Shown here: positions 11,718-39,970 of the stretch, one piece after another
Layout: each line of letters begins with the position of its first letter
How positions within the stretch are numbered: position 1 is the stretch's first letter
NCBI RefSeq assembly: GCF_030644385.1
Contig: NZ_CP130060.1
Location: 2,046,001 to 2,110,000 of the forward strand
Length of the DNA: 64,000 nucleotides
Direction: 5' to 3'
Source: Stomatobaculum sp. F0698
GTDB lineage: Bacteria > Bacillota > Clostridia > Lachnospirales > Lachnospiraceae
Notes under the pieces: generated by a model
What the model was told of the DNA's origin: nothing
Seen by the model: the letters and a program-made list of their open reading frames with translations, nothing else
Databases searched by the model: none
Made by a program: the position numbers and the translations under genes

Positions 11718-12151
11718 TGATTCTCCTCTCGAAGCACAAAATTCTCTCCCCGCCTCCGATATCGTAACGCAGCGTTTCTCCCGTTATCGCAGACTCCTCG
11801 TCTGTTTTCCGGACACTTCAAACAAACCTCCTTCTGCTGATGTTTGTCTGTTTCTGTCTGTCTGTTCTATGCTTCTCTGTTCTGCTTGTCTGTTCTATAC
11901 TGTCTGTTCTATGCTTCTCTGTTTCTGCCTGTCTGCTCTATGCCTCTCTGTTTCTGCCTGTCTGTTCTATGCTTCTCTGTCCTCTGCTTCTTTGTTTCTG
12001 CTTGTCTGTTACTTGCTTCTCTGTACTCTGCCTATCTGTCCTCTGCTTCTTTTTTTCTGCTTATCGGTTCTCTGCTTCTCTGTTCTCTGTTTCTGTACTT
12101 TTCTTCTTTGTTTGACCCTAATTTCCTTGCGGACATCGTCCGTGCAAAACA
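11718..12151. other. Gene-free spacer between nth and trmL
   Basis: This spacer of about 430 bp has no convincing gene. Its middle is the imperfect pyrimidine-rich tandem repeat listed separately. The remaining ends (11718-11844 and 12116-12151) show no clear promoter or terminator to me. Open frames across the repeat on the plus strand are Cys/Leu/Ser-only products of the low-complexity sequence. Confidence 0.6.
11845..12115. repeat. Imperfect 29-30-bp pyrimidine-rich tandem repeat
   Basis: About eight degenerate copies of a 29-30-bp unit run through this stretch. The core CTGTTCTATGCTTCTCTG recurs, for example near 11862, 11913 and 11966. The plus strand is almost pure C/T with G only in CTG and GT steps, and the minus strand is purine-rich. 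It lies between two minus-strand genes, so a nth read-through transcript would be A/G-rich and unstructured. Confidence 0.85.
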
Positions 12152-27533: not shown

Positions 27534-27982
27534 TGAAATCAAAAACGGCCTTGTGGATAAGTCTGTGGGAACAGCGTGGGAAGCTTGTGATTGTGTGCGG
27601 ATAACGGTGTAAATTCGGGTTAACCGTAATTGTGAAGTCACAGCTGTGGATGAGATTTGCCTGTTGTTATTCGCATTTCCACAGCTTAAAACACGGCATA
27701 AAGAGCCGAAGGGAGGAAAAAGCGGTGTGAAAAGAAGAAGTTATCAACGAGTTACTCACAAAATGTGAATAACATTATGTAAAGTTGAAAAACCATGCTT
27801 GGTTTTTGTATACAATGAGTTATCCACAAAAAGTTGTTGAAAATCTGGATAAGTATGAGAGGGGTTAAAATTTATCCACAGAATGACGGTACAAATTGTT
27901 GAAATCCAAATTCAATATTTTGTAAGCTACAGAAGCGCTTATTTTATCTGCGAATATGCTTAAAATGCGAGCTTGAAAGTTC

Positions 27983-28378: not shown

Positions 28379-28723
28379 ATGAGACGCTTTCCGTCGATCA
28401 AGGATAACTGTGAGTTTCGGAAAATTTATGAGGAAGGCAGAACCAGAGCGGACCGTAATCTGGTTCTCTATGTTCGTCCGCGTACCGCAGGAGAACCGCG
28501 TATCGGTATCAGCGCGTCAAAAAAAATCGGAAACAGTGTCGTTCGACATCGTGTGACAAGGCTGCTGCGAGAGGCTTTTCGTCTGCATCGCAGTGCACTT
28601 TCCGTATCCTGTGATTTGGTTTTTGTTGTGCGAAAGGATGGCGCAATGCAGGGATACCATGCCATTGAAGCTTCTTTTTTGAAGCTTTGTCGGGCGCAGG
28701 GTATATTAGAGGAGCAAAAATGA
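28379..28723 (+). CDS. rnpA: Ribonuclease P protein component
   Basis: RnpA is the protein cofactor that helps the RNase P RNA cut tRNA 5' leaders. The 114-residue protein contains the RNR signature region [21 protein letters not shown] near residues 48-70, of which [16 protein letters not shown] is the core, and the aromatic N-terminal part [12 protein letters not shown]. The stop overlaps the yidD start as ATGA. The RNase P RNA gene is not seen in this window. Confidence 0.95.
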
Positions 28724-32618: not shown

Positions 32619-34529
32619 ATGATAGAAGAGAGATATGATGTAATTGTGGTCGGAGCCGGTCATGCGGGCTGCGAGGCGGCATTGGCGGCAGCGCGTTTGG
32701 GGATGAAGACAATTATCTTTACCGTCAGCGTTGACTCCATTGCCCTGATGCCCTGTAATCCGAACATCGGAGGTACTTCCAAGGGGCATTTGGTCCGGGA
32801 ACTCGATGCGCTGGGCGGTGAGATGGGACATGTGATTGATAAGACCTTTATCCAGTCGCGCATGCTCAACGAGTCAAAAGGACCTGCGGTTCATTCGCTG
32901 CGCGCGCAGGCGGATAAACAGGCTTATATCGCGGAAATGCGCCGTGTACTGGAGAGAAACCCACAGATTACGATACGGCAGGCAGAGATATCCACAATTT
33001 TAACCGAAGATGCTGTGGATAAACTGGGGAAAAGACGCTGCATCGGTGTAAAAACCGTCTCGGGAAGCCACTACTATGCCGGGGCTGTCGTATTGGCAAC
33101 CGGTGTTTATCTCAACGCGCGCTGTGTTTTCGGCGAAGTCAGCGAAGAAACAGGACCGAACGGGCTCAAGGCAGCCACAAAATTAACGGCTTCTCTTCTC
33201 TCACTCGGCATTGAGATGCGCCGCTTTAAGACCGGAACGCCGGCGCGGGTCGACGGGAAAACGCTTGATTACTCCAAGATGCAGGAACAAAAGGGAGATG
33301 TCCCTGTGGTCCCCTTTTCCTTTGATACCGATCCGGACACGGTACAGCGGGAACAGGTGAGCTGCTGGCTCACGCATACGGGCAGTGAAGTCAAGCGACT
33401 GATTGAGGAGAACATCGATCGTTCGCCGCTTTACAACGGCAGTATTCAAGGAACCGGCCCCCGTTACTGCCCCTCGATTGAAGATAAGGTGATGAAATTT
33501 CCGGACAAAGAGGGACATCAAATTTTTGTTGAGCCGGAGGGCCTCTATACCGATGAAATGTATCTCGGCGGTATGTCCTCTTCTCTTCCCGAGGATGTTC
33601 AGTATGCGGTAATACACGCGACGCCCGGTCTTGAAAACGCGGTCATCGTACGCAATGCCTATGCCATTGAATACGATTGCATCGATGCGAGACAGTTGAC
33701 GGCGAGTCTTGCGTTCAAGGAAATTCCGGCTCTTTTTGCAGCCGGACAAATCAACGGAAGCTCGGGCTACGAAGAGGCTGCGGCCCAGGGTTTGGTTGCC
33801 GGAATCAATGCCGCACGTCTGATTCAAAAGAAGGAACCCTTTGTTTTGGACCGCTCGGAGGCCTACATCGGTGTTCTGATCGACGACCTTGTGACCAAGG
33901 AGAGCCATGAACCCTATCGCATGATGACCTCCCGCTCGGAGTACCGCCTGCTGCTCCGCCAAGACAATGCGGATCTTCGCCTCTCGGAACGCGGGTACGA
34001 GCTGGGATTGGTCGGTGAAGAAAAGATACAGAGACTTAGGCTTAAGCGAAGCGGAATCGAAGCTGAGCGAAAACGTCTTATGGCAACACATATCGGTGCG
34101 AGTGCCGCGAACAATGAGCTGCTTCAAAAATTAAATTCCACACCGCTGAAGACCGGAATTTCTCTCGCGGAGCTTATTAAGCGGCCGGAACTGAATTATG
34201 AGTTGATTGCCCCCTTGGACACGGAACGCCCGGAATTACCGCACTCTGTGTGCGAGCAGGTGAACATAGAATTGAAATACGAGGGTTATATTCGTCGCCA
34301 GGAACAGCAGGTGAAACAATTCAAACGCTTGGAACATAAACTGCTGCCGGAAGATTTGGACTATGAGTCCGTAGGAAGTCTGCGCCTCGAAGCGGTGCAA
34401 AAGCTAAAGGCGCTGAAACCGAGATCCATAGGACAGGCTTCCCGCATTTCCGGTGTCTCACCTGCGGATATCTCGGTTTTGCTGGTCTGGTTGGAGGCCA
34501 ATAAACATAGAACAGGAGGAGGCATATGA
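32619..34529 (+). CDS. mnmG: tRNA uridine-5-carboxymethylaminomethyl modification enzyme MnmG
   Basis: MnmG is the FAD- and tRNA-binding partner of MnmE. I start it at ATG 32619 ([21 protein letters not shown]), 636 residues; an upstream in-frame start lies inside mnmE. The dinucleotide-binding [12 protein letters not shown], the family signatures [19 protein letters not shown] and FKTGTPAR, and [20 protein letters not shown] are all present. The C-terminal helical tRNA-binding part is complete. The stop overlaps the rsmG start as ATGA. Confidence 0.96.
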
Positions 34530-35290
34530 CGCTTGAAGCGTTGAACGAGTTTGTCCGTGATATGCGAACAGCTCTGGAGAACCTTCCCGAGTCGGGAAAA
34601 CTGTCTTTGTCAGACGGACAGTTTGCACAGTTCGCACAGTTTTACGAGGATATGCTGGAGAAGAATCAGGTGATGAATCTGACCGGCATTACAGAGCGGC
34701 GGGAAGTTATCGTGAAACACTATATTGACAGCCTGCTCCCTGCCTGCCTGCTCCCCGATTTTCCGAGAACCGGAACAAGACTTCTGGATTTGGGCAGCGG
34801 CGCAGGATTTCCGGGAATTCCGCTTGCAATTGTCTTTCCGAACTTGCACCTCACTTTAATGGACAGTCTTAATAAAAGGATTGTTTATTTGACAGATGAA
34901 ATCGCAAAATTAGGCCTGCAGGATCACACGGTGGCACTTCATGCGCGCGCGGAGGAACTGGCACGACAGACAGGACAGCGGGAAGCTTATGACTACTGCA
35001 GCTCGCGTGCGGTTGCCCGCCTGGCCGTGCTCTCCGAGTATTGTCTCCCCTTTGTCAAAGTCGGGGGACAGATGCTCGCCTACAAAGCAGGAGAAATCGA
35101 GGAGGAGCTTGCCGAAGCGCAGTTTGCAATCAAGAAATTAGGCGGTATAACGGAGCAAGTGGTTTCCTTCTCACTGCCAGACGATGCGGGCAAGCGAAGC
35201 TTGGTTGTCATTCGAAAAGTTAAGGAGACAGCGCGAATCTATCCGAGAAAAGCAGGTATGCCGACAAAGGCACCGCTGGTACTGAAATAA
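34526..35290 (+). CDS. rsmG: 16S rRNA (guanine527-N7)-methyltransferase
   Basis: RsmG methylates G527 in the 530 loop. The 254-residue protein has SAM motif [18 protein letters not shown] near residue 90 and [14 protein letters not shown] near 155. AGGAGG lies before ATG 34526, which overlaps the mnmG stop. It is the last gene of the mnmE-mnmG-rsmG block and is closed by a terminator, beyond which the parS region starts. Confidence 0.95.
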
Positions 35291-35353
35291 AATGAACCGG
35301 TTGATATCGAAATAATCCGAGTCGGAATTTACTCGGAACGGGAACAGAGAAGA

Positions 35354-35395
35354 AGCCGAGGCTGTGTAGAAATCACGGCCTAGGCTCTTTTTTTT
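35354..35395 (+). terminator. Terminator after rsmG
   Basis: The arms AGCCGAGGC (35354-35362) and GCCTAGGCT (35378-35386), with one mismatch, are followed by eight Ts. The first parS starts four bases past the T-run. Confidence 0.8.
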
Positions 35396-35398
35396 ATA

Positions 35399-35414
35399 TG
35401 TTTCACGTGAAACA
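35399..35414 (+). promoter_or_regulatory. parS site, perfect
   Basis: TGTTTCACGTGAAACA, identical to the palindromic ParB-binding consensus. It is the first site after the rsmG terminator. Confidence 0.95.
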
Positions 35415-35430
35415 CCATGTGTCGATTGTA

Positions 35431-35446
35431 TGTTTCACATGAAAAA
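35431..35446 (+). promoter_or_regulatory. parS-like site, two mismatches
   Basis: TGTTTCACATGAAAAA differs from the consensus at two positions, one of them central. It lies 32 bp from the preceding perfect site. Confidence 0.55.
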
Positions 35447-35592
35447 ACGGTGTAAGAAAAGCCGAGCAAATGGTCGAGAGCTTCCGTTCATCGGAAAAAG
35501 CCGGATTCGACAGGTTGGAGATATTTGTCCTTCGAAAATGAAAGCAGGTTAAACCCTTGTCTGTATTAGCGGATGGGGTCATTCCGATATAG

Positions 35593-35608
35593 TGTTTCAC
35601 GTGAAACG
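35593..35608 (+). promoter_or_regulatory. parS site, one mismatch
   Basis: TGTTTCACGTGAAACG differs only at the last base. Confidence 0.88.
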
Positions 35609-35668
35609 TAGAGGGGAATCGCTATCGTATATCTGCGCAGATGTATTCGATCATCGGCCTCCTAACTA

Positions 35669-35684
35669 TGTTTCACGTGAAATC
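35669..35684 (+). promoter_or_regulatory. parS-like site, two mismatches
   Basis: TGTTTCACGTGAAATC keeps the central CACGTG and the left half; the last two bases differ. Confidence 0.7.
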
Positions 35685-36359
35685 AAATATAGCAAACACT
35701 ACTGTGTGACGGAGATGAAGAAAAATAAAATTATCGGCTCTTCTATTCTCCGATTGTCACAGGATGAGGCATTGTGCAGATAACAAATCCGAAAGCAAAT
35801 CTGAAAAAGCTGCAGAGCAGACTGAAGCGCAGGCTCCCGTTTAGCCCATAAAGCGGAAATCAGATCGGATCCAAAGTGTAATTCAAATGCACATCATATC
35901 ATCATGAATGAAAATCAAACTACAATCTGCGATATAACTTATGGCATTGAAACAACGAAATTGCAACGACTGATAGCTCATACGAGCAGACCAAGTGGTA
36001 AAGAGAAAATTGACCCATAAAGCCGATATCAATACCATGCCGTAAGTGTAGAAATGCTGCCCGATTAGAAGTCGTAAGACAGAAACTGAATTATCTTATA
36101 GACTGTATTATCTTATAGATAAGAACGATTGATTATTGAATTGATGCTGTCAGCGTATGCCGCCGGATGCAGAAATTGATTCCTTTCGTTTTCGACTTGA
36201 GACCTCCCCGGGTTCTCATGCTTTGGCATAGACGCTAAATGCTAAGATCTGATTTCAATATAACAATGTGTATAAGGCTGATATAACACAATCAAAAATA
36301 GCCTGTTTCTGATATTGCAGTTTCGAGTTATACCCATGTAATTGAATCGATACGATGGA

Positions 36360-36375
36360 TGTTTCACGTGAAACA
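36360..36375 (+). promoter_or_regulatory. parS site, perfect
   Basis: TGTTTCACGTGAAACA. The upstream flank ATTGAATCGATACG resembles the tail of the 181-bp repeat. Confidence 0.95.
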
Positions 36376-36657
36376 GTAAAGACAGGCTAAGAGGAGAATC
36401 TGAGGGGACGAATACATACGGACGCGGTGCTTGATAACTGTCAAACTGCGCTTATAGCTCGTAAGCCCACTCAAAGCAACGGTGCGGATAGGATACGATC
36501 ATGTATGAGTTATGACCTTTCGAAACAATCTTCTCATACTGTGAGGGAATGTAACGATACCGGATATATGCTTGTATGCTTCAATTTTACGGCCAAGCGA
36601 TGGTACCCGGTTATGTCAGCCGGACCGGAGCTTTGAGATTGAATCTACGATCAATGA

Positions 36658-36673
36658 TGTTTCACGTGAAACA
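36658..36673 (+). promoter_or_regulatory. parS site, perfect
   Basis: TGTTTCACGTGAAACA at the head of a degenerate 182-bp unit. GAGATTGAATC lies about 20 bp upstream. Confidence 0.95.
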
Positions 36674-36839
36674 GTGAGGGCGGATGAGACCGTTTCTTCA
36701 AGCTGACGAGATGACATAAACGGGAGCTTCTAAGACCGGGATATATCAATATTCCAAGACCGGTTCGATGCAACAGATAGCCGAGTATTCATGGTATTGT
36801 CGATGTCATCGAGCACTTGGAAATCGAATCGCACCGTAG

Positions 36840-36855
36840 TGTTTCACGTGAAACA
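36840..36855 (+). promoter_or_regulatory. parS site, perfect (repeat unit)
   Basis: TGTTTCACGTGAAACA at the head of a full 182-bp unit. Confidence 0.95.
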
Positions 36856-37021
36856 GAAAAGGAGAAAAATGTTATTGCGCCGAGGGGATGAGATCAATTC
36901 GTTGCGATACCTGGCAACAGTAGCTGATTTGATTTCTGTAAGACAGCTCAATGCGTTCGGAAGCCAATCGTAATTGGGATCCTCGTGTCATCTAGAACTA
37001 GAAAATTAAATCGCACTGTAA

Positions 37022-37037
37022 TGTTTCACGTGAAACT
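37022..37037 (+). promoter_or_regulatory. parS site, one mismatch (repeat unit)
   Basis: TGTTTCACGTGAAACT differs only at the last base. Confidence 0.88.
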
Positions 37038-37201
37038 GAAAGATAGAAGGCTGTTATTGCTTCGATGGGATGAGATCAATTCGTTGCGATACCTGGCAAC
37101 AGTAGCTGATTTGATTTCCGTAAGGAAGCTCAATGCGTATGGTAGCAATCGTAGTCGGGATCGTCGTGTCACCGAGCACATGGAAATTGAATCGCACCTA
37201 A

Positions 37202-37217
37202 TGTTTCACGTGACAGA
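37202..37217 (+). promoter_or_regulatory. Decayed parS site (repeat unit)
   Basis: TGTTTCACGTGACAGA looks like the consensus after loss of two As from the right arm, which matches this unit being 180 bp after the last. The left half and CACGTG are intact. Confidence 0.6.
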
Positions 37218-37382
37218 GAAAAGTCGAAGGCTGTTATTGTGCCGAGGGTACGAAATTAATCCGTTGTGATGCTTGGCAGCGGTAACTGATTTGATTTCCG
37301 TAAGGAAGCTCAATGCGTCCGGAAGCCAATCGTAATTGGGATCCTCGTGTCATCTAGCACTAGAAAATTAATCGCACTGTAA

Positions 37383-37398
37383 TGTCTCACGTGAAACA
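37383..37398 (+). promoter_or_regulatory. parS site, one mismatch (repeat unit)
   Basis: TGTCTCACGTGAAACA differs at one base of the left arm. Confidence 0.85.
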
Positions 37399-37563
37399 GA
37401 AAAGTCGAAGGCTGTTATTGTGCCGAGGGTACGAAATTAATCCGTTGTGATGCTTGGCAGCGGTAACTGATTTGATTTCCGTAAGGAAGCTCAATGCGTT
37501 TGGTAGCAATCGTAGTCGGGATTGTCGTGCCATCGAGCACGTGGAAATTGAATCGCTGCGTAT

Positions 37564-37579
37564 TGTTTCACGTGAAACA
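37564..37579 (+). promoter_or_regulatory. parS site, perfect (repeat unit)
   Basis: TGTTTCACGTGAAACA at the head of the last full unit. Confidence 0.95.
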
Positions 37580-37744
37580 GTGAAGTCGAAGGCTGTTATT
37601 GCGCCGAGGGGATGAGATTAATCCGTTGCGATACTTGGAAGCGGTAGCTGATTTGATTTCCGTAAGGAAGCTCAATGCGTTTGGTAGCAATCGTAGTCGG
37701 GATTGTTGTGTCACCGAGCACCGATAAACAGAATTGCACAGTCA

Positions 37745-37760
37745 TGTATCACGTGGAACA
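37745..37760 (+). promoter_or_regulatory. parS-like site, two mismatches
   Basis: TGTATCACGTGGAACA, exactly one unit length after the previous site, where the repeat ends. Confidence 0.65.
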
Positions 37761-37961
37761 GTTGAGAAAATGCAGTCGGAACTACTTTAAACCGATACTC
37801 CCTGGCTCCGGAATTTACGAAAGTTAAGCTGTATCGAAAGGAGTTATTTTCCGGATATATGCCGCATGATTCGCTGCTAGTTCTGTTTCAGCAAGATAGA
37901 TTTACTGTCATTGAACGATCAATGCAAACGAATACCGGGAAAAGAAATCGACAACGAAGGA

Positions 37962-37977
37962 TGTTTCACATGGAACA
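37962..37977 (+). promoter_or_regulatory. parS-like site, two mismatches
   Basis: TGTTTCACATGGAACA, with one central mismatch. It shares downstream TGCAGTCG with the site at 37745. Confidence 0.5.
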
Positions 37978-38378
37978 TGTGAGAAAGATGCAGTCGCTCA
38001 CGCTTCATAACCATATCCTCTGGCGCGACAATCATGAAAGTGATACTTCAATGACGAGAGCTTCTTCCGCATAGTCAGTGTCCGTTTCGTATCGAATACT
38101 GCACTGTCATTTCTAAGCGTAAATTTCGCGAACCGGCTATGCCATGTGAAGCAATATAGTTTCAAGACAGATTGTCACGCAGAGCAATAGTTCTGTGTGT
38201 CGAAGTGACCTTATCATGCTTTCATACGCAGGCGGTAATGTTTAGCGGCAATTTGCGATAACCGCTACATATAACAAGGAAATCGGCTAGTCTTCTGAGA
38301 GTCATTATAGCCGCTATGTAACGGGATTGCGGAATTTACGGACAGGCAGTTGAACAATTGATCTTTCTTCCGGCGTCA

Positions 38379-38394
38379 TGTTTCACGTGAATTA
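38379..38394 (+). promoter_or_regulatory. parS-like site, two mismatches
   Basis: TGTTTCACGTGAATTA keeps the left arm and CACGTG. Confidence 0.65.
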
Positions 38395-38818
38395 GAACTG
38401 TAAATGATTGCAACTGCTGCGTTTGCAGATATGGCTCTATCGGATCTTTGCAGAGAAGCCGTTTATGTTGTCGCGCTTTGACTCCATGCGGAATAAATGA
38501 TTCGATGCGTTGTTGCCATTCGGTTTAAAGAAGCTGCGGTAATATTCGGTTCTATAGTGCGGGGCAACTGCCCGTATGAAAGCAAACAGAGGCATTTCCG
38601 GTATGGCTACAATACGGTTTTCCATATACCGATTTTGCCTGCTATGCGTGTTCTTTGATATTTATCGGACGCTTCAGTTTGATACATCGCTTCTTCGCAT
38701 TGCAATCGACTTGCTTACAGTAAAGTCTTCTCTTTCGTTTGGTGCTCACTGTGAAGCTGCTTTTTTTTCACGGAGACAGCTATCATTGTACGAACCGGTT
38801 TTCGCTTGTCCGCAGTTT

Positions 38819-38834
38819 TGTTTCACGTGAAACA
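38819..38834 (+). promoter_or_regulatory. parS site, perfect
   Basis: TGTTTCACGTGAAACA, the site nearest to parA, about 370 bp before its start codon. Confidence 0.95.
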
Positions 38835-39143
38835 AAGGATGGGTCGTCACATGGACTCAGGAAATCATAGGAAATCTTGATCGGAACTTTTCTCATGAAT
38901 CCATTGTTTTATCACGTTCGTATATCAGTTCGAAGGATAGACAAGGCTGTATTTCGCTTGTATCGGAATCGAATTGAAAGACAAAGATAAAATGATTTTT
39001 CTGTCAGAAAGCAGGCGGCACGAAGACCGGAATTGCGCCGCCTGAGGCAGTAGGTACGAAGCGGGAAAATAGAGTTATTGCTTCAAAAATTCAGAGAAAC
39101 TACCGCTAGGGGGACGGTTATTATTTCTTGGAGTCTTAATTTG

Positions 39144-39152
39144 TGTTATGAT
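39144..39152 (+). promoter_or_regulatory. Extended -10 promoter of parA
   Basis: TGTTATGAT forms an extended -10 (TG-n-TATGAT). No good -35 lies upstream. It would start transcription about 45 bases before parA. Confidence 0.45.
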
Positions 39153-39202
39153 ATAGAACAAAGCGAAAATTTTCGAATAGAGAGGCGCACGGTGAAGCAA
39201 TC

Positions 39203-39970
39203 ATGAAAAAAATCATTGCATTGTCAAATCAAAAGGGCGGAGTTGGAAAAACGACAACTGTCGTTAATCTGGCGGCGGCATTTGCGGAAGCCGGTATGCG
39301 TGTATTGGCGGTTGACTTTGACCCGCAGGGGAATTTATCGAGCGGTCTCGGAATTGAAAAGAAAAAGGACGATAACACAATATACGAGCTGTTGATGGAT
39401 GCATGCACATTTGAGGAGGCTGTACACAAGAGCTATTCCGAGAATTTAGATGTGCTGACATCCAATGTAAATCTCTCCGGACTGGAACTCGAACTTCTGG
39501 AAAAGAAGAACCGAGAGTATGTTCTGAAGCACTATTTGGAGGCTGTGGTCGATCGTTACGACTATATCTTTATAGACTGCCCTCCTTCCTTGAGTCTTCT
39601 GACCATCAATGCATTGACCGCAGCGACGGATGTCATTATCCCCATTCAGTGTGAGTACTACGCGATGGAGGGTCTCAACCAAATGCTGCGGAGCATCAAG
39701 CTCTTGCAGATGAAGTTGAATCCCGCGCTGCGCATCAACGGCATTGTGTTTACGATGTATGATGCGAGAAATAATTTGTCGCAACAAGTCGTGGACAGTG
39801 TGAAAGATGTTCTGAAGGAATATATCTACGATACAGTCATTGCGAGAAATGTGCGTGTCGCGGAATCTCCCAGTTACGGAATGCCGGTAACCGAGTATGA
39901 CCCGCGTTCCACCGGTGCGGAGAATTACCGCAAGCTTGCGGCTGAGATTTTAATGAGAGAGGCAGAGTAA
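39203..39970 (+). CDS. parA: Chromosome partitioning ATPase ParA (Soj)
   Basis: ParA/Soj is a deviant Walker ATPase that binds DNA and, with ParB and parS, segregates origins and can regulate DnaA. The 255-residue protein begins MKKIIALSNQKGGVGKTTTV, with the deviant Walker A KGGVGKTT at 10-18. Other motifs are VDFDPQGNLSSGLG and IFIDCPPSLSLLTINAL, here cited as FIDCPPSLSLLT. There is no N-terminal DNA-binding extension, so it is the chromosomal (short) type. parB follows 5 bp later. Confidence 0.96.
   Translation: MKKIIALSNQKGGVGKTTTVVNLAAAFAEAGMRVLAVDFDPQGNLSSGLGIEKKKDDNTIYELLMDACTFEEAVHKSYSENLDVLTSNVNLSGLELELLEKKNREYVLKHYLEAVVDRYDYIFIDCPPSLSLLTINALTAATDVIIPIQCEYYAMEGLNQMLRSIKLLQMKLNPALRINGIVFTMYDARNNLSQQVVDSVKDVLKEYIYDTVIARNVRVAESPSYGMPVTEYDPRSTGAENYRKLAAEILMREAE

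Follow-up and report, generated by a model that had tools for sequence, protein, structure and literature searches.

Organization of the rsmG-parA gap

The window analyzed here is a 64-kb stretch of the chromosome of the Lachnospiraceae bacterium Stomatobaculum sp. F0698 (genome G000; one contig, 2,151,431 bp, 100% complete), and its subject is an array of sites for the partition protein ParB, known as parS, that fills the gap between rsmG and the partition genes parA and parB. Between positions 35399 and 38834 the window carries 15 parS-like 16-mers, 6 of them exact, 3 with one mismatch and 6 with two (Table 1), the last group being candidate sites only. Up to two mismatches were allowed throughout for the window and its genus, and up to one in the surveys of the family and phylum. 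Raising the threshold to three mismatches returned no further site in the window, and dinucleotide shuffles of the window gave an expectation of 0.19 matches at that threshold, with none of 100 shuffles reaching 15. A scan of the whole genome at up to two mismatches found exactly these 15 places, all inside the rsmG-parA gap, while a reversed-pattern control over the same genome gave 3 matches. An earlier note on this DNA had listed the sites, and all of its 15 coordinates and mismatch classes proved correct on rescanning. It had also stated that an equal density of parS across the rest of the chromosome would refute its proposal of a dense intergenic array adjoining its own parA-parB; no other site exists in the genome at this threshold, and the scan and the anatomy of the gap bear that description out. 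An assembly artefact is unlikely since the genome is a single contig and the repeated units described below are only about 83% alike.

The parA and parB genes stand in tandem beside the array, as a chromosomal ParABS system requires. The window parA is 48-58% identical to those of relatives (tblastn) and 70-93% identical to those of five congeners; the 25 NCBIfam matches listed for it are all to ParA/MinD superfamily models and all under their cut-offs. A single protein in G000 matches PF02195 (ParB_N), and it is the window ParB. Two residues, R and G, are described as absolutely conserved in ParB proteins that bind parS (PMC7383237). The helix-turn-helix of the window ParB has R at residue 178 and G at 206, which match Caulobacter R173 and G201 when mapped by eye, and these would be expected to specify parS over the Noc site. 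At the position of residue 184, which is said to vary among ParBs, it has K. G000 also encodes one SMC protein scoring over the cut-off, at 899592-903122.

Eight open reading frames (ORFs) of at least 60 amino acids (aa) occur in the gap, the longest of 94 aa. None of them matched Pfam at E up to 0.1, and Rfam at gathering thresholds gave no match in the gap, which supports the earlier claim that it is free of genes and led us to reject a hidden gene or RNA. The hairpin after rsmG should be read with caution, as terminator-like patterns occur in the region at about chance frequency (4 on both strands versus 3.3 expected). GC skew changes sign near 26 kb of the window, and the probable replication origin (oriC) between dnaA and rnpA places the start of the array about 7.5 kb from it. 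The locus thus combines proximity to a probable origin with parS above chance, as expected of chromosomal ParABS.

Table 1. Coordinates (window positions) of the parS array and of the features around it.
Feature	Position	Strand	Basis
rsmG-parA gap, 3,912 bp, all 15 genome sites at up to 2 mismatches	35291..39202		rsmG stop to parA start; genome scan
parS, exact	35399..35414		16-mer scan
parS-like, 2 mismatches	35431..35446		16-mer scan
parS, 1 mismatch	35593..35608		16-mer scan
parS-like, 2 mismatches	35669..35684		16-mer scan
parS, exact	36360..36375		16-mer scan
parS, exact; first of seven at 180-182 bp spacing, outside the tandem repeat	36658..36673		scan, Tandem Repeats Finder (TRF)
parS, exact	36840..36855		16-mer scan
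parS, 1 mismatch	37022..37037		16-mer scan
parS-like, 2 mismatches	37202..37217		16-mer scan
parS, 1 mismatch	37383..37398		16-mer scan
parS, exact	37564..37579		16-mer scan
parS-like, 2 mismatches; last of seven evenly spaced	37745..37760		16-mer scan
parS-like, 2 mismatches	37962..37977		16-mer scan
parS-like, 2 mismatches	38379..38394		16-mer scan
parS, exact	38819..38834		16-mer scan
181-bp tandem repeat, 5.3 copies, six parS	36799..37761		TRF, 83% matches, score 1224
rsmG, left border of gap	34526..35290	+	TIGR00138, 146.4 bits vs cut-off 99.5
Terminator-like hairpin after rsmG, 17 bases before first parS	35359..35381	+	pattern match
84 bp preceding parA	39119..39202	+	aligns to congener G005
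parA, Soj-type, 255 aa	39203..39970	+	ORF; homology to relatives
parB, 315 aa	39976..40923	+	TIGR00180, 187.8 bits vs cut-off 58.45; solved ParB/Spo0J relatives
Probable oriC, 7 DnaA-box-like nonamers (3 exact), between dnaA and rnpA	27552..27880		nonamer scan, GC skew
dnaA	26062-27462	-	translation and gene order, without family search
rnpA	28379-28723	+	translation and gene order, without family search

Tandem units in the array

The core of the array arose by tandem duplication. Seven sites, from 36658 to 37745, recur every 180-182 bp, a regularity absent from the earlier note, and all but the first of them lie in the tandem repeat; the unit around 36658 resembles the others in short flanks near parS only. 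The units are mosaics: over the flanking DNA compared, 37383 shares its right flank exactly with 37202, and its left flank is 96% identical to that of 37022, against 51-89% for every other pair. This pattern suggests that unequal exchange or conversion between units shaped the array. Mean spacer identity falls steadily with the distance between units (0.81, 0.79, 0.75, 0.72, 0.64), so the window contains no clear higher-order repeat, only mosaic units. A search of the 6 congeners for the 181-bp repeat found nothing similar. Elsewhere in the window, at 11847-12113 and about 0.8 kb past a minus-strand tRNA cluster, lies another tandem repeat, of short period (15, 29 or 44 bp, with a score of up to 222).

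Variation within the genus

Site numbers differ widely among the seven genomes of the genus: 15 in G000, 12 in G005, and 3, 3, 2, 2 and 0 in the others, the genome with none being 82% complete. All 12 sites of G005 lie inside its 4,071-bp rsmG-parA gap, and the main two sites of the four other congeners with sites are also found there, with G003 and G006 each having one two-mismatch site on another contig. DNA identity between the window and G005, with gaps disregarded, is 75-81% for mnmG, rsmG, parA and parB. When the window gap was compared with G005 by blastn (E up to 0.05), what aligned beyond the end of rsmG was parS with a few flanking bases and a single other block, 39119-39262 (84%), made up of the 84 bp before parA and the first 60 bp of the gene. 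Masking parS and excluding the final 145 bp of the gap left nothing that blastn could align to G005 at E up to 0.01.

The mismatches of the window sites are unevenly distributed: 13 of 15 affect the half of the 16-mer that faces parA (binomial p 0.007). This bias may be due to chance because the copies share ancestry; the sites of G005, inspected by eye, have no such bias.

parS arrays in the family and phylum

A survey of 397 Lachnospiraceae genomes, with size classes counted by reading the table, found a site in 324. A single site is present in 20 of these, 2 or 3 in about 247 and 4 or 5 in 38; the other 19, G000 with its 9 sites among them, have at least six and are called high-count genomes here. 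Many loci in the family hold their sites together just before parA, and what is exceptional about the window array is therefore its local amplification rather than its clustering. Genomes of the same genus may differ: one in g96 has 4 sites and another 10, and in g57 the numbers are 3 and 7.

We searched for tandem repeats with TRF in 19 loci from 18 genomes, namely 17 high-count genomes and L057, from a Lachnospiraceae metagenome-assembled genome; L211 (G359), L218 (G033) and the second contigs L204 (G404) and L217 (G398) were omitted. Repeats in step with the parS spacing, or with a small multiple of it, were found in 13 loci from 12 high-count genomes belonging to 12 genera. Two of these loci are small, L202 (G398) with 4 sites and L216 (G291) with 3, and the high-count genomes without an in-step repeat are G005, G158, G365, G069 and G131. 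Sites are spaced by about 37, 39, 52, 54, 57, 61, 63-73, 75/150, 122, 181 or 216 bp across the family arrays. These periods, from 37 to 216 bp, give scattered fractions when divided by 10.5, which led us to discard a fixed helical phase, and the variety of spacings in other genomes led us likewise to drop the roughly 180-bp spacing shared by the window, G005 and L057 as a constraint. Masked spacers gave no match between array genomes at E up to 1e-3, the only match being between two contigs of G159, which indicates that the arrays are either independent or completely turned over. The array of G159 is split, with ends on two contigs, as happens in draft assemblies, which break within arrays. 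Among 11 loci analyzed for multi-unit order, alternating dimers occur in two and not in the window. Spacers two apart are 76% alike in G327 versus 53% for neighbours (shuffled 55%), and 85% versus 68% in G198 (shuffled 61%).

Within a sample of 398 genomes of the phylum, all at least 95% complete, six or more sites are present in 13, one of which is G000. G501, G686 and G813, which belong to one family, have parS in pairs or triplets 35-37 bp apart, and in the remaining high-count genomes the sites are mostly spread across kilobases or contigs (G654 is partly listed). Two members of another genus of the phylum, G654 and G788, have 72 and 31 parS, respectively, dispersed among many contigs. Among the matches listed, all five single stretches examined from G654 (L233-L237) and L238 have repeat blocks in common beside parS; the blocks reach 469 bp, most are 75-88% identical, and three of these stretches have two parS 115-117 bp apart. 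From these matches, an interspersed repeat seems to have carried parS to new places in G654. In L239 of G788, many parS seem by eye to belong to palindromes that are longer than the site and have A/T-rich arms, for example TTTTGAAA.

Some other parS stretches lie apart from partition genes. L218 (contig C82 of G033) has mostly one-mismatch parS that twice recur at about 2.5 kb, and L217 (contig C19 of G398) has mostly one-mismatch parS at irregular intervals; neither stretch gave a tblastn match to the window parA or parB, and they are possibly mobile elements that use the host ParB. Ten viral contigs (L247-L256) each have a trio of exact 14-base parS cores in a span of 82-135 bp and are perhaps phage-plasmids or misassigned pieces of chromosome.

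Conservation of parS relative to the spacers

Conservation was compared in 10 of the 19 TRF loci, from 9 genomes, that have regular spacing, with intervals within 15% of the period; L057, L131, L202, L205, L208, L212, L213, L214 and L216 were left out. Pooled over these loci, parS deviates from the unit consensus at 28 of 1168 letters (2.4%), versus 632 of 4533 (13.9%) for the spacers, and parS deviates less than the spacer in every one of the 10. Taken alone, the window array deviates at 4 of 96 parS letters and at 156 of 990 spacer letters (Fisher p 0.0006).

A probable centromere and its alternatives

We consider it quite likely that the rsmG-parA gap is the sole ParB-loading centromere of the chromosome, grown by tandem duplication, with its 16-mers under selection, and working much like the array of the F plasmid. 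Growth would have proceeded through tandem duplication of parS-bearing DNA, most recently of the 181-bp unit, with selection retaining the 16-mers as spacers drifted and were replaced. ParB clamps load at parS and then slide (PMC8494293, PMC7053999, PMC9242446). The single ParB of this genome would be expected to bind the array and be loaded as cytidine triphosphate (CTP) clamps through as many as 15 entry sites spread over 3.4 kb, from which the clamps would slide into the adjoining DNA. One ParB-rich complex would then form and be moved by ParA, and the tight cluster would cause SMC to be loaded at effectively one place; scattered parS have been described as seemingly counterproductive for avoiding collisions of SMC (PMC8357415). 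Many sites may also have an advantage over few. Condensation in vitro was reported with 7, 13 and 26 parS and not with 1, 2 or 4, with 5 to 7 required and a force that increased with parS number (PMC8299390), and the natural 15-site array would fall within this range if the weak sites bind.

Several points weigh against this reading. The p values for conservation are too small, because the sites were chosen by similarity (up to two mismatches) and the copies share ancestry. In the five window units most alike, parS is equalled in conservation by 24 of 183 sliding windows; with seven units, by 2 of 183. An unmasked global alignment of the whole gap with that of G005 scores 136 versus 34-72 for 10 shuffles, so some signal is shared, and intergenic DNA is commonly unalignable at such divergence. 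The window ParB has S where a conserved G170 is expected. Finally, a single parS is often sufficient (PMC7333895), and since most relatives have 2-3 sites, the extra copies may be redundant.

An alternative view is that the array is an ordinary origin-proximal parS cluster in which one or two sites work and the extras are a neutral by-product of tandem duplication. Five of the 6 congeners have 0-3 sites, weak sites are frequent (6 of 15), parS is no outlier among the five closest units, and in two species extra parS were tolerated only in a region of about 600 kb that surrounds the origin or the native locus (PMC7333895). However, spacers drift more than parS in all loci compared, G005 keeps its 12 gap sites although its spacers no longer align to the window, and arrays occur repeatedly, in 12 of the genera sampled from the family, so we regard this explanation as unlikely, if still deserving of real weight. 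It is improbable that the array mainly regulates expression, with ParB spreading to silence or autoregulate parAB. The array ends 368 bp from parA, the five congeners with sites keep their main ones between rsmG and parA, and a plasmid ParB is reported to silence genes near its parS (PMC7333895), but a single site near the promoter would do, and sites reach 3.8 kb from parA. If the array were what is left of a plasmid or phage partition locus that had inserted next to parA, its form would have a precedent in the tandem centromere arrays of plasmids, such as the twelve 43-bp repeats of F (PMC6238139). This origin is very hard to credit: a search of 72,556 plasmid records and 50,697 records of phages gave no match to the array at E up to 1e-5, its motif is the chromosomal 16-mer, five congeners have their sites in the same gap, and G000 has one ParB_N protein.

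We give an even chance to a wider claim: satellite centromeres would repeatedly evolve in Lachnospiraceae chromosomes, as species-private tandem parS arrays that arise, become uniform through exchange among their units, diverge and are replaced while only the ParB-binding 16-mer is selected, in parallel with eukaryotic satellites. Bacterial centromeres may thus grow and turn over somewhat like the repeat-built centromeres of plants and animals. A review lists among its open questions why parS numbers vary although a single site is commonly enough, and what causes parS to cluster in the course of evolution (PMC7333895). Congeners with 2, 3, 12 and 15 sites, and the differing unit lengths of other genera, constitute a natural experiment on parS number and clustering. 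Should parS satellites prove general in the Lachnospiraceae, centromere turnover through repeat amplification would reach beyond eukaryotes.

Comparison with known systems

The array shares with chromosomal ParABS (Soj/Spo0J) the 16-mer, the parA-parB pair, the position near a probable oriC, a single ParB_N protein and the presence of SMC. It differs in that its sites all lie in 3.4 kb and are multiplied, partly as a tandem repeat, and in that G000 has 9 sites at up to one mismatch versus 2-3 in most genomes of the family. The earlier note had instead contrasted the array with chromosomes that carry a few to about ten parS over hundreds of kilobases. That contrast is not borne out by relatives, which mostly have 2-3 sites, often together before parA, and it disagrees with a report that parS is clustered within 5-40 kb in most bacteria and scattered in only a few lineages (PMC8357415). 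In gut bacteria studied by Hi-C, clusters near the origin were found with the same 16-mer and 2 mismatches, and some species are described as having several parS within one 5-kb window; these genomes have 1-10 sites, and tandem repeats are not described in the available part of that report (PMC10197239). Titles and the beginnings of abstracts in the open-access literature, a scope to which the Livny 2007 survey does not belong, yielded no paper on tandem chromosomal parS arrays.

The window differs from a Noc system with its Noc-binding sites (NBS) in that G000 has no second ParB paralogue, its one PF02195 match being the protein with R and G. Eukaryotic satellite centromeres consist of tandem units with a short protein-binding box, in sequences private to the species and with multi-unit repeats. 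By analogy only, the window has tandem units with a protein-binding box and a sequence private to its species, and two relatives, G327 and G198, have multi-unit repeats. The window array differs in being a few kilobases long with few units, in lacking histones and homology, and in having mosaic units without clear multi-unit order.

The point centromere to which the earlier note had likened the array is a poor analogy, and the tandem array of the F plasmid or a small repeat-built centromere is nearer. The F-plasmid parS (sopC) consists of tandem repeats with 16-bp inverted ParB motifs (PMC6238139), and the window array likewise stands beside par genes. The sopC arrangement of one ParB motif per tandem unit holds for 6 of the 15 window sites, while the unit is 181 bp in 5.3 copies (TRF) rather than 43 bp in twelve. 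The window array is also chromosomal, uses the chromosomal parS motif and has diverged units. It would appear to work like sopC, yet it is no member of that class.

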